Assembly: GCF_900537995.1 (NCBI RefSeq)
Contig: NZ_LR027880.1
Location: 1,062,001-1,126,000 of the forward strand
Direction: 5' to 3'
Source: Roseburia intestinalis L1-82
GTDB lineage: Bacteria > Bacillota > Clostridia > Lachnospirales > Lachnospiraceae
Length of the DNA stretch: 64,000 nucleotides
Below, in pieces: positions 34,924-62,730 of this stretch. How positions within the stretch are numbered: the stretch's first letter is position 1; every line of letters begins with the position of its first letter. The notes below the pieces were generated by a model. That model was not told the origin of the DNA and did not search any database. It saw nothing but the letters and a program-made list of their open reading frames with translations. A program made the translations under genes and the position numbers.

Positions 34924-35511
34924 ATGGGAATGAGATTTAGAAAGAGCAAAAAGATCGCGCCGGGTGTTCGCCTGAACCTGAGCGCAAAGAGCGCAAGCGT
35001 ATCAATCGGCCCGAAGGGTTTCAAGAAAACATTCAGCACCAGCGGCAGAGTGACAACAACGGTGGGGATCCCGGGTACCGGGCTTTCCTACTCCACAAGT
35101 AAGAAAACGGGCCAGACTGCTGCCGGTTCCACCTCTCAGGAGGCGCCTGCTGCCCCCGTGGTGGCTTCCAATAAAAACAAGTGGGTAACTCTTGCCCTCT
35201 GTGTGTTCCTCGGCTTCTTTGGGGCTCACCGCTTCTATGTTGGCAAGGTCGGCACCGGAGTCCTTTATATTTTCACTGTCGGCGGTCTGGGCTTCGGCTG
35301 GATCATTGACATGGTTATGATCTGTTGCAACAAATTCACCGACAGCACCGGCGCGGTGGTTGGTCTGAAGGTTGCTGAGTATACCAGACAGCCGGATCCT
35401 GATCTTGCAGAGGCTTCTCTGGAGGAGCAGCGGGAGGCAGCGGCCGAGACTGCCAGAGCTTACGGCTATACCGTAATAGAGTCAGGCGCTCAGGATAATG
35501 CCGACAAGTAA
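34924..35511 (+). CDS. DUF4236-TM2 membrane protein (lysogenic accessory gene)
   Basis: 195 residues. N-terminal DUF4236 ('MRFRKSKKIAPGVRLNLSAKSASVSIGPKG...TSGRVTTTVGIPGTGLSYSTSKK'), a Pro/Ala linker, a TM2 domain ('KWVTLALCVFLGFFGAHRFYVGKVGTGVLYIFTVGGLGFGWIIDMVMIC'), and a charged tail. Good ribosome site AAGGAGGTCCTTATAT. Placed between repressor and integrase, where lysogenic conversion genes sit; it overlaps the integrase start by 14 bp. Confidence 0.85.
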   Translation: MGMRFRKSKKIAPGVRLNLSAKSASVSIGPKGFKKTFSTSGRVTTTVGIPGTGLSYSTSKKTGQTAAGSTSQEAPAAPVVASNKNKWVTLALCVFLGFFGAHRFYVGKVGTGVLYIFTVGGLGFGWIIDMVMICCNKFTDSTGAVVGLKVAEYTRQPDPDLAEASLEEQREAAAETARAYGYTVIESGAQDNADK

Positions 35512-37156
35512 AAACACGGCTCGAAAATATGCCGCAGGAGGTAGCTCGGATAATTCCTGCGGCGTAGAGCCATTACGGGCGGTCATATACGCAAGATATT
35601 CCAGCAGCGGCCAGCGTGAGGAGTCGATCGAGGGACAGCTCCGCGACTGCTACGAGTTCGCCAAAAAGCACGGCATTATTGTCATAGGCGAATACATCGA
35701 CAAGGCAATGACTGGACGAGTGGACCGGCGGCCAGACTTTCAAAGAATGATGAAGGACAGCGAGAAGGGTCGCTTTAATTGCGTTTTGCTCTGGAAAATG
35801 GACCGTTTTGCCCGGAACCGTTACGACTCAGCCATGTATAAATATAAGCTCAAAAAGAACGGGATCCGTATTTTCTACGCAAAAGAGACCATACCGGACG
35901 GCCCGGAGGGTATTATATTAGAGTCAGTAATGGAGGGCTACGCTGAGTATTACAGCGAAAACCTCGCCCAGAACGTGAAGCGCGGCAACTACGACAGCGC
36001 GCTGGAGCTCAAAACACTGGGAAAGACCTGCCTCGGGTTGAAAACCGGCCCAGACGGTCGCTATATGATAGATCAGGCCGAGGCCGCTATCGTTCGCAGG
36101 ATCTTCGAGGAGTATGCCGAGGGTGAGCGCGCGAAGGATATATACGAGAGACTAAACTCAGAGGGCTACCGGACGAGCCGGGGCGGTAAATTCAACAAGA
36201 ATAGCCTCCGGCGTATTCTATCGAATAAAAAATATATTGGTGTCTATGAGTATGAGGACATTTATGTCGAGAATGGGATCCCGGCCATAATTACCGATCG
36301 GGATCTATTTGAGAGGGTTCAGAAAATGCTAAAAATAAACCACGACGCACCGGCCAGAGGCAAGGCGCAAAATTTCCTGCTTACAACAAAATTGTTTTGC
36401 GGGCTTTGTGGTTCTCCGATGATAGGCGACGGCGGCACCAGCCACACCGGGAAAGCATACGCCTATTACTCATGTACGAAGCGCAAGCGCGGCCGGAGCT
36501 GCAAGAAGGAGTCGGTGCCTAAAGACTGGATCGAGGACCTTGTTGTCGGCGAGCTTGTCAAGATCGTACACAACGACGAACTGATCGAGCAGATTGCCGA
36601 TCGCGTCATGGAGTACCAGAAAAGAGAAAAGGATCAGTCCGGCCTTCATGCGTTGGAGATCCGGCAGAAAGAAAACGAGAAAGCAATCAGCAACATGCTG
36701 GCAGCCATTGAAGCCGGCATAATTACCCCGAGTACAAAAACCCGGCTCATGGAGCTGGAGGCTGATCGCGCGGACATTGAAAAGGGAATAGCTCACGAGC
36801 TCTTAGCAGAGCCAGAGTTCGAGCGGGATCAAATTATCTACTTTTTAGAGAGGTTCCGCTCTGGAGATATAAACGACGAGGCGTACCGCATTATGTTGGT
36901 CGATACGTTCCTAAATTCCGTCTATTTGTACGACGACGATCATCTGGTTTTAGTGATGAATTACTCAGGAGAGAATTGCAAGGTTGATCTCAAACTGGTG
37001 GAAGGCGCTGTCAGTGGTGACGGTTGCAAAGGTTCAGCTTTTGCGCCGTCAAGCGCATTGAAAAAAGATTCAGTTTTTACTGGATCTTTTTTCTTATTCA
37101 TGATAATAGAATGTTCACGGAGCGCGCATTCTATTATTTGCTCTTGGATGAGATAA
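35498..37156 (+). CDS. Large serine recombinase (phage integrase), C-terminus reading into host DNA
   Basis: 552 residues. Resolvase domain about 27-175 with catalytic Ser35 in 'YARYSSSGQREESIEGQ', recombinase domain about 185-300, zinc ribbon 'CGLCGSPM...YYSCTKRKRGRSCKKE', coiled coil about 360-450. The normal end appears to be near residue 520 ('AFAPSSALKK'). The last 30 residues lie on a terminator hairpin and on a repeat also found in host DNA at 59393, so the stop codon is supplied by the chromosome. Integrates or excises the phage. Confidence 0.93.
   Translation: MPTSKNTARKYAAGGSSDNSCGVEPLRAVIYARYSSSGQREESIEGQLRDCYEFAKKHGIIVIGEYIDKAMTGRVDRRPDFQRMMKDSEKGRFNCVLLWKMDRFARNRYDSAMYKYKLKKNGIRIFYAKETIPDGPEGIILESVMEGYAEYYSENLAQNVKRGNYDSALELKTLGKTCLGLKTGPDGRYMIDQAEAAIVRRIFEEYAEGERAKDIYERLNSEGYRTSRGGKFNKNSLRRILSNKKYIGVYEYEDIYVENGIPAIITDRDLFERVQKMLKINHDAPARGKAQNFLLTTKLFCGLCGSPMIGDGGTSHTGKAYAYYSCTKRKRGRSCKKESVPKDWIEDLVVGELVKIVHNDELIEQIADRVMEYQKREKDQSGLHALEIRQKENEKAISNMLAAIEAGIITPSTKTRLMELEADRADIEKGIAHELLAEPEFERDQIIYFLERFRSGDINDEAYRIMLVDTFLNSVYLYDDDHLVLVMNYSGENCKVDLKLVEGAVSGDGCKGSAFAPSSALKKDSVFTGSFFLFMIIECSRSAHSIICSWMR
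35531..35563. other. 9-bp stem hairpin at the start of the integrase gene
   Basis: GCCGCAGGA at 35531 and TCCTGCGGC at 35555 form a perfect stem around a 15-base loop. It falls in codons 12-22, before the conserved resolvase part. It could limit translation or be a recombination-related site. Confidence 0.4.
37061..37092. terminator. Bidirectional terminator at the prophage right junction
   Basis: AAAAAAGAT-T-CAGT, TTTT loop, ACTG-G-ATCTTTTTT, with A and T runs on both sides, working in either direction. It lies inside the annotated 3' end of the integrase frame and is followed at once by the dispersed repeat that follows other host terminators, so it is likely host DNA. Confidence 0.7.
37094..37133 (+). 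repeat. 40-bp terminator-linked dispersed repeat, copy 1
   Basis: Begins TTATTCATGA and ends GCATTCTA, with an inner dyad TAGAATG / CATTCTA. Identical to the copy at 59393-59432 at 37 of 40 positions. Both follow a terminator directly. Confidence 0.8.
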
Positions 37157-37167
37157 AAATTAAATAT

Positions 37168-37400
37168 GGGCGAAATATATAGAAGATAGAGGTGATTTCA
37201 TCCATTTTATAATAGAAATTCATTTAACATACAAGAAAATGGGTGAAAAAGGATGAGATTTCATTATAATAGCCCACGAAAATCAAAAAGTCAGGGTGAA
37301 AACAGCAGAAATGAAGGAGTTTCGCCCAAAATGATAGAGGAAGAAGTTGAAAATAGAAAATAATGGGTGAAAGTGGTTTGAAAGATGGAAATTTAGCCCG
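37168..37400 (+). repeat. Dyad-symmetric GGGYGAAA motif element, copy 1
   Basis: AT-rich non-coding DNA with GGGCGAAAT (37168), TTTCATCCA (37196), GGGTGAAAA (37241), CCCACGAA (37273), GGGTGAAAA (37294), TTTCGCCCA (37320), GGGTGAAAG (37365) and TTTAGCCCG (37392). Offsets mirror around the centre. A second copy in reverse at 62441-62672 has the same motifs at the same offsets within 1-2 bp, with unrelated sequence between. It fills the gap between the integrase and tRNA-Gly. No gene is seen here. Confidence 0.75.
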
Positions 37401-37594
37401 TTCATCTGGTGGATGTCTGTTATGTGTGGATCAGAGTGAAAGCAGAGTAAATTTAAACGGAAACCCCATTCACAAATTCGCAGGAAAGCTTTGAAAAAGC
37501 ACTGTGTGATCAGTAAAAAAGTGTAATTAATTTTTACATTGCAATAAAAAAATGGAAAACCTTGTAAACCAAAGTTTCCCATCATTAAGAGAAG

Positions 37595-60915: not shown

Positions 60916-62385
60916 ATGTTAAAACAATGGGAAAAAACAGAGCGTCCGTCAGATGCAAAACTGGAGGAACGGCTGCAGGAAGCACGGAGAAAACTGCAGG
61001 AGCAGCAGCTCAAGGTAAAAGAGCACGGACTGCCGGTGCTTGTGCTTGTGGAAGGATGGGGAACCGCAGGTAAAGGCTCACTGATCGGTCAGATTATTAA
61101 AAACATTGATCCGAGATTCTTTAAAGTAGCGTCCATGGCGGCACCGACGGAGGAAGAAAAGAGAAAACCGTTTTTGTACCGCCACTTTGTAAAAATACCG
61201 GAGAGCGGCAAGTTCAGCTTTTTAGACTCCGGCTGGATGGATGAGATCATGGGTGAAAGACTGCATGAAAAGCTTGGAGACGAGGCATATGCGCACCGCA
61301 TTGAGAGTGTCAAGCGGTTTGAACGCCAGCTGACAGATAACGGTTATCTCGTCGTGAAATTATTTTTGCAGGTGTCTAAAAAGGAACAGGAAAAACGGAT
61401 CGAACATCTTTCTAAGGAGAAGGATACCAGATGGCGTGTCAGCAGGAATGACCGCTGGCAGAATGAGCATTATGAGAAATGCCTGAATGCATTTGATTCC
61501 TATTTAAAGGAAACAAATCTGCCGTCAGCACCGTGGTATATCATTGATGCAGAATCAAAAAAATGGACGGAGTTACAGGTACTTGAGATTCTGACGGAAG
61601 GAATTGATGTGGCGCTTGCCAATAATGCGATGGCGGTGCCAATTTTACAGAATGTATTTTCTATGGAAAAAATGCCCCTGTTGTCGGAGATCCCACTGGA
61701 TAAGACAATTGGAGAGGACGAGTATAAAAAAGAACTGAAACGTCTCCAGAACCGCTTAGGAGAGCTTCATAACCGTCTGTACCGCAAAAAAGTTCCGGTC
61801 ATCATTGCATATGAGGGATGGGATGCAGCAGGAAAGGGCGGCAATATCAAGCGGATCACCGGAGCACTCGATCCGAGAGGCTATGAAGTACATCCGATCG
61901 CAAGCCCGGAGCCACACGAGAAGGCGAGACATTATCTCTGGCGTTTCTGGACGAGGCTGCCAAAGACAGGACATATCGCGATCTTTGACCGCACCTGGTA
62001 TGGCAGAGTCATGGTGGAGCGTCTTGAGGGGTTCTGCAGCGAAAATGACTGGAAACGTGCCTATAACGAAATTAATGAATTTGAAAAGGAACTGCACGAC
62101 TGGGGCTCTGTTATCATCAAGTTCTGGGTGCAGATCGACAAGGATACACAGTTAGAGCGTTTTAATGAGAGACAGAACACTCCGCAGAAGCAGTGGAAGA
62201 TCACAGATGAGGACTGGCGTAACCGTGAAAAATGGGATCAGTATGAAGATGCAGTCAATGAGATGATCCAGAAAACCAGTACGACATATGCGCCCTGGCA
62301 TATCTTAGAGTCAGTGGATAAACGGTATGCAAGGATCAAAGCATTAAAGATCGTGATCGAGGAGTTAGAAAAAGTGCTGGAGTGA
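60916..62385 (+). CDS. Polyphosphate:AMP phosphotransferase (two-domain PPK2)
   Basis: 489 residues from ATG 60916 (GGGAGGGATTTGC upstream). Two PPK2 domains: the first with 'VEGWGTAGKGSLIGQIIKNIDPRFFKV', the second with 'AYEGWDAAGKGGNIKRITGALDPRGYEVHPIASPEPHEKARHYLWRFWTRLPKTGHIAIFDRTWYGRVMVERLEG'. Two-domain PPK2s convert AMP to ADP using polyphosphate. The second domain keeps the full catalytic set. Preceding 200 bp is AT-rich with no gene. Confidence 0.93.
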   Translation: MLKQWEKTERPSDAKLEERLQEARRKLQEQQLKVKEHGLPVLVLVEGWGTAGKGSLIGQIIKNIDPRFFKVASMAAPTEEEKRKPFLYRHFVKIPESGKFSFLDSGWMDEIMGERLHEKLGDEAYAHRIESVKRFERQLTDNGYLVVKLFLQVSKKEQEKRIEHLSKEKDTRWRVSRNDRWQNEHYEKCLNAFDSYLKETNLPSAPWYIIDAESKKWTELQVLEILTEGIDVALANNAMAVPILQNVFSMEKMPLLSEIPLDKTIGEDEYKKELKRLQNRLGELHNRLYRKKVPVIIAYEGWDAAGKGGNIKRITGALDPRGYEVHPIASPEPHEKARHYLWRFWTRLPKTGHIAIFDRTWYGRVMVERLEGFCSENDWKRAYNEINEFEKELHDWGSVIIKFWVQIDKDTQLERFNERQNTPQKQWKITDEDWRNREKWDQYEDAVNEMIQKTSTTYAPWHILESVDKRYARIKALKIVIEELEKVLE

Positions 62386-62440: not shown

Positions 62441-62672
62441 TGGGCGAAACAAGTACAGGATATGCTTGTTTCGCCCGTTTTTTTGTAAAGCAGTTGACAT
62501 AATATTGTCAAATGGGCGAATTAAAAGAACTTTTTTTGAAAAACAGCCACATATATCGAAATTCGTGGGTGTTTTGTATGATACAGGATCGTTTTCACCC
62601 AATATCATACAAATTCATAAAATGAGACAGTATTTTTGGATGAAAAGATTGAAGTAACATATCATTTCGCCC
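62441..62672 (-). repeat. Dyad-symmetric GGGYGAAA motif element, copy 2 (reverse)
   Basis: On the plus strand: TGGGCGAAA (62441), GTTTCGCCC (62468), TGGGCGAAT (62513), TTCGTGGG (62562), TTTTCACCC (62592), TGGATGAAA (62637), ATTTCGCCC (62664). Read on the minus strand the motif offsets from the first motif (0, 27, 72, 103, 151, 196, 223) equal those of the copy at 37168 to within 2 bp. It fills the gap between the PPK2 gene and the broken gene; no gene is seen here. Confidence 0.75.
62442..62485 (+). terminator. Terminator of the PPK2 gene (end of the motif element)
   Basis: GGGCGAAACAAG...CTTGTTTCGCCC followed by a long T-run: an efficient terminator that is also the first motif pair of the element. 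Confidence 0.8.
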
Positions 62673-62730
62673 ATTTCACATTTATGGTGTAATGGAAATA
62701 TTCAATTTTTATCCATAAAGCAACTGGAAG

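Follow-up and report, generated by a model that had tools for sequence, protein, structure and literature searches.

The closest described systems to the sequences considered here are the repetitive extragenic palindromes (REP), including bacterial interspersed mosaic elements (BIME) and REPINs, with their REP-associated tyrosine transposase (RAYT, or TnpA-REP). According to PMC2817692, PMC3116915 and PMC8266576, the transposase gene is flanked by its repeats and gene-less repeats are scattered intergenically, with regular spacing, several gene-repeat pairs per genome and repeats that are species-specific; PMC2817692 quotes more than 100 copies. Here we analyze a comparable arrangement in Roseburia intestinalis L1-82, starting from a short array at positions 37168-37399 of a 64,000-nucleotide stretch of its genome (the window; contig NZ_LR027880.1, positions 1,062,001 to 1,126,000). 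The patterns detected point to a type of bacterial repeat system that had not been recognised before, in which the array is probably a gene-less copy of a family of arrays belonging to a PD-(D/E)XK-type nuclease gene, whose product would bind and spread them. As in REP/RAYT, a gene sits amid its own repeats (in 49 of 80 gene loci one unit or more lies within 700 bp), with the nuclease-like gene replacing the RAYT, and gene-less repeats are scattered in extragenic DNA with regular spacing, several pairs per genome and species specificity. In contrast, the array-linked enzyme is PD-(D/E)XK-like and not a Y1 tyrosine transposase, the arms probably act as double-stranded half-sites with helical phasing rather than as single-stranded hairpins, and the host genome has few copies, eight near-full plus partial ones, compared with the number quoted for REPs in PMC2817692. 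No description of such arrays or of the nuclease-like gene was found in the open-licence literature.

The array consists of four palindromic units of 34-36 bp starting at offsets 0, 73, 126 and 197 from 37168, and a second copy lies further along the window. The features are as follows.

37168..37203, + strand: unit 1, GGGCGAAA ... TTTCATCC, 36 bp, with a degenerate right arm
37241..37275, + strand: unit 2, GGGTGAAA ... AATAGCCC, 35 bp, the right arm being of a second type
37294..37327, + strand: unit 3, GGGTGAAA ... TTTCGCCC, 34 bp
37365..37399, + strand: unit 4, GGGTGAAA ... TTTAGCCC, 35 bp
37166..37401, + strand: whole array, as matched by a six-copy sequence model (E 6.7e-45; the array is itself among the six)
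62441..62674, - strand: second array copy, found by the six-copy model and outside its training set
62441..62477, + strand: outer hairpin of the second array copy with a T run behind it, resembling a terminator

Units 2-4 start with GGGY and end with RCCC, and unit 1 ends with ATCC. The original prediction, made from the sequence alone, had read eight GGGYGAAA motifs or complements here and seven in the inverted copy. Five of the eight are exact (offsets 0, 73, 126, 152 and 197) and two have one mismatch (28 and 224), but offset 105 proved to be the right arm of unit 2, AATAGCCC, a second arm type without a GGGYGAAA match that is present again in other array copies. This layout recurs in reversed orientation in the second copy (62442-62672), with four exact motifs (offsets 0, 27, 151 and 223), two with one mismatch (72 and 196) and nothing at 103. 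The mirror symmetry noted for the outer motif pairs is accounted for by the four palindromic units, whose intervening gaps measure about 37, 18 and 37. Our reading of the second copy as lying on the - strand is taken from its GCCCACG centre, the element being near-palindromic; the six-copy model matches it at E 1.5e-12 on the + strand, with a partial match of 2.1e-5 on the - strand. Spacer sequence was thought to be unrelated between copies, which holds for the two in the window but not for the family, where internal sequence is partly common (alignment columns are on average 70% identical across six copies, of which one is partial). Likewise, the judgment that this is no plain duplication is borne out for the geometry, but the copies do form one dispersed family partly sharing sequence.

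The number of GGGYGAAA motifs alone is weak evidence, with only mild enrichment in the window (13, compared with 4.9 +/- 2.3 in shuffles, 1 of 100 of which reaches 13). What is decisive for the element being real is the paired pattern GGGYGAAA-N15..22-TTTCRCCC, which occurs at 10 places in the 4.49 Mb host genome as opposed to 0 for the reversed control. The converse pattern TTTCRCCC-N32..42-GGGYGAAA occurs at 5 places compared with 0 for its control, one of the five (1295574) falling outside all array copies. A model of the sequence alone, trained on six copies, returned eight near-full copies in the host genome (E 6e-46 to 1.5e-12) and several partial ones, with 16 matches at E <= 1; six of the eight are in the model, while 3597139-3597372 and the second window copy are not. 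The copies are situated between unrelated genes, and their similarity stops at the outer arms, with no target-site duplication seen by eye. Between ecfT and truA the gap is 686 bp with an array in the host genome, as compared with 12-226 bp in 28 of 29 relatives for which the locus was returned and 613 bp in the other (G472; genomes, contigs and loci carry our G, C and L labels), TruA itself having been matched in 56 relatives. We read this array as a probable insertion. In one copy (G000:C1:4028439-4028521; L012, L026) an additional, incomplete unit block lies outside the quartet, which suggests that arrays gain or lose units. There is also an isolated perfect GGGTGAAAACAC hairpin (G000:C1:3600091-3600123; L010) that matches the paired pattern, corresponds to no array copy, and is terminator-like.

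Exact arms are nearly restricted to the host species: across 397 genomes of the family there were 9 matches in the host's own genome and 1 each in nine others, and the control gave 1 in one genome. A species-only reading of the element, drawn from this search, was dropped after a geometry-only pattern, fixing TGGGY, RCCCA and two gap ranges and nothing else, matched congeners. That pattern matched 11 of 60 genomes of the genus, with a single match each in three of them (G011, G028 and G477), and the reversed control gave zero in all 60. Further copies and related array families exist and the reversed pattern controls are empty, so neither of the outcomes that the original prediction named as refuting it was observed. 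In the congener G018 units have other arms, GGGACATA, GGGCGACA and GGGCATAT, with spacing unchanged, and there is a family of closely similar dispersed array copies. Run on 60 relatives, the six-copy model matched 12 genomes at E <= 0.01, but the loci inspected outside G000 and G018 (L035, L036, L037) show no array, and its signal was traced to those two genomes. Gene-less arrays are scattered beside many unrelated genes, and their presence differs among related species. Within one intergenic stretch of G018 several arrays with differing arms follow in succession (G018:C5:20001-20960; L073), and elsewhere tandem GGGCTATA...CGCCC units of shorter period lie beside a GGGACATA quartet (G018:C7:52760-53165; L066).

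The association of arrays with the nuclease-like gene is almost certain. A collection scan gave 452 stretches encoding the gene, the best 80 of which were kept for flank counts. Within 500 bp of these 80 genes, GGGY..RCCC pairs numbered 109, 50 and 20 at 33, 34 and 35 bp, compared with 2.7, 1.3 and 0.7 expected from far flanks, and at most 6 at every other length between 20 and 59 bp; the flanks of 29 truA genes, serving as control, had 3, 0 and 0. At least two units were present within 700 bp in 42 of the 80 loci, and arrays occur on either side of the gene (two or more units upstream in 18/80, downstream in 34/80). Among the 31 loci without units, several (L161, L171, L192, L216, L226) show the geometry with GGACATA, GGTCATA or GGCATA arms and the remainder show nothing clear. 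Congeners have units at 17 of their 24 gene loci. The gene is present in 10 of the 11 pattern-match genomes compared with 19 of the 49 others (60 congeners; Fisher p 0.002), the sole exception being G477, whose single match falls inside a 464-codon open frame. It directly adjoins arrays in G000, G458, G012 and contig C33 of G018 (12 bp), and on contig C60 of G478 pattern matches lie on both sides of it. In the class as a whole the gene was found in 13 of 196 genomes, 7 of them outside the family. Near the class-scan genes (18 loci, family members included) there were 161 exact inverted repeats of 25-39 bp as opposed to about 27 scaled. Roughly half of the loci contribute most of these repeats, whose arms and lengths differ from those above; the GG-arm length spectrum of these genes has no peak at 33-35, and one flank read at each of two such loci showed no clear array. 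One genome, G028, has seven gene-family matches (contigs C10, C16, C18, C43; L282-L286), and flanking repeats differ among the copies read.

The neighbour protein belongs to a family of at least 2,135 members that has no clear Pfam model and carries PD-(D/E)XK-type motifs. Pfam, NCBIfam and PHROGs gave no clear family for it, PF20586 is precomputed on one homolog, and a search by sequence of solved structures returned none (best E 0.93). Conserved motifs are RSKSE, PDFT and WEHFG, with E156, PD185-186 and W200-E201 invariant in 26 sequences; the E ... PD ... (D/E)x signature of PD-(D/E)XK nucleases is therefore present, with WEHFG as third motif in place of ExK. The protein also compares with the PD-(D/E)XK fold, its structural neighbours being I-Bth0305I, TnsA and Bax1. 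Identity to Tn7 TnsA and the homing endonuclease I-Bth0305I is 11-18% with middling Z, which speaks to fold at best and not to function, and no search was made for a TnsB/TnsC-like partner of the gene. The C-terminal domain matches positions 1055-1217 of the 1221 in the profile of the PADLOC candidate PDC-S68 (PDLC05065; E 2.5e-31), as do 26/26 alignment members of the family, but these proteins of about 258 residues lack the N-terminal part of about 1,000 positions, leaving one domain in common only; searches of the open-licence literature turned up no paper that names PDC-S68. A single copy of the gene was found in the host genome and it is interrupted by an in-frame stop, so the local system may be inactive, although an intact homolog exists in databases. 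The start codon was read 4-12 nt downstream of a GGAG core, ahead of a conserved [ILVF][YFH]. Of the 80 loci (L161-L240), 23 were left unassigned; in the other 57 the codon was ACG in 24, ATG in 16, TTG in 5 and something else in 12. Of the 36 non-standard cases, no more than 2 have within 60 nt an alternative standard start that is in frame and has a ribosome-binding site.

Arms mostly differ between gene copies of the same genome. Arm likeness, out of 6, was 3.01 within a locus, 2.26 between gene copies of one genome (17 same-genome pairs) and 2.12 between different genomes; exceptions are L180/L186 and L161/L174, and L230/L233 are near-duplicates. For 5 of 10 gene loci the dispersed arrays of the own genome, listed by hand in six genomes, were the best match, compared with 1 in 6 expected. 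A Mantel test of protein identity against arm similarity was negative and like arms were confined to 7 protein pairs above 70% identity, so arms drift fast. Co-evolution of protein and arms is suggested, not proved.

Whether the arms act as DNA or as RNA can be judged from their complementarity. We compared left and right arms over 202 units from 45 loci, after removing six duplicate loci. Inside a unit, complementarity was 0.85 at position 4, 0.80 at position 5 and 0.57 at position 6; for arms taken from separate units of the same locus the corresponding values were 0.83, 0.79 and 0.54, and for arms from separate loci 0.49, 0.52 and 0.40. No unit-specific covariation was therefore found in this sample, nor the compensatory changes within each stem expected of structured RNA; the arms match because of a common locus consensus and not because each stem is kept up. 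Neighbouring unit centres lie near 42, 52, 62, 71, 81 and 92 bp apart, 123 of 130 spacings below 95 bp falling in these six modes, and 8 of the 80 loci have recurrent quartets of units, with spacings of, for example, 72-53-72 or 81-51-81. The spacings fit best to a period of 10.0-10.1 bp (R 0.81, or 0.75 when only the 93 unique values are counted). None of 2000 uniform sets exceeds R 0.35, while an R as high as that observed was obtained in 68 of 2000 sets of six random modes with similar occupancy. The far flanks supplied eleven spacings, a number too small for a control, and part of these may stem from additional arrays. Equal complementarity together with phasing of about 10 bp therefore favours half-sites on one face of double-stranded DNA over RNA hairpins, and we regard double-stranded recognition as highly probable. 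It could be argued that the arrays are transcribed into linked hairpins acting as a guide, antitoxin or structural RNA for the nuclease, which would agree with palindromic units and variable loops beside a nuclease and with a frequent non-standard start codon in a gene kept at low expression. This is very doubtful given the complementarity, the spacing period, the arrays on either side of the gene, and the failure of Rfam to return anything but tRNA at gathering score, its matches at E <= 5 being weak and at chance level; the linked hairpins of the original prediction find no backing here. Its other suggestion, of arrays of bound protein, gains indirect support from the phasing, the locus-specific half-sites and the regular nuclease-like neighbour, and may well hold. 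A regular array beside a nuclease gene, with a 71-72 bp spacing resembling repeat plus spacer, also recalls CRISPR and other repeat-spacer arrays; unlike those, only arms of 4-8 bp are kept, there are dispersed gene-less copies, and no unit-spacer logic was seen.

It is likely that the nuclease-like protein recognises the arrays, whereas for its causing their spread we put the chances as even. With its N-terminal coiled coil and C-terminal nuclease-like domain, the protein would bind inverted half-sites as an oligomer on one face of double-stranded DNA; it might then cut at or near array sites, and repair or strand transfer might insert copies of the array that flanks the gene at new intergenic positions, these being the steps of which we are least sure. 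Alternatively, the protein or a host regulator could bind the arrays as operators controlling its own gene or neighbours, with copies spread by ordinary recombination or a different enzyme. Arrays flanking the gene on either side, helical phasing as expected for cooperative regulator binding, and one copy doubling as a terminator-like site are all consistent with this, but dispersed arrays beside many unrelated genes, varying in presence among related species, look like spread rather than a fixed regulon, and we consider the operator explanation unlikely. An ordinary miniature inverted-repeat transposable element (MITE), moved by an unrelated transposase and sharing an insertion preference for the neighbourhood of the nuclease gene, would account for dispersed intergenic copies with roughly palindromic ends and for the closely similar family in G018. 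It agrees poorly with an enrichment tied to one gene family over many species and absent at the truA control, with arms that vary with the gene copy, and with the lack of a target-site duplication on inspection by eye, and is improbable. Least credible is that the arrays are classical REP sequences of a Y1 (HUH) transposase, in spite of the similar organisation described in PMC2817692 and of PF01797 matches in three pattern-match genomes (G000, G012, G028). The other eight (G010, G011, G018, G458, G473, which is 99% complete, G475, G477 and G478) have no PF01797 match and the regular neighbour is another enzyme; the RAYT hypothesis is unsupported, and membership in REP/RAYT fails because both enzyme and copy number differ.

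Two observations concern the surroundings of the window copies. The terminator-like hairpin at 62441-62477 sits downstream of a gene ending at 62385, and was the 1 intrinsic terminator found by a terminator scan, compared with 0.3 +/- 0.5 in shuffles. The open frame at 35498-37156, a putative large serine recombinase from its reading, stops 11 bp short of the first array, which may mark the edge of an integrated element.

The proposal that a PD-(D/E)XK-type nuclease addresses and spreads these arrays would imply a new class of genetic element, for and against which we see the balance as equal: a single nuclease gene, often apparently with an ACG start, that addresses and spreads its own phased double-stranded arrays, with a half-site dialect for each gene copy, several orthogonal systems per genome, and the same logic with other arms in further clostridial families. 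The many gene copies with different arms make enzyme-repeat co-evolution directly testable, and how translation is controlled is a question of its own, posed by the many start positions that read ACG. If true, the REP/RAYT arrangement would exist in a second, independent version that relies on double-stranded recognition by an unrelated enzyme; this large protein family would acquire a role, and intergenic repeats in common gut bacteria would have an explanation.
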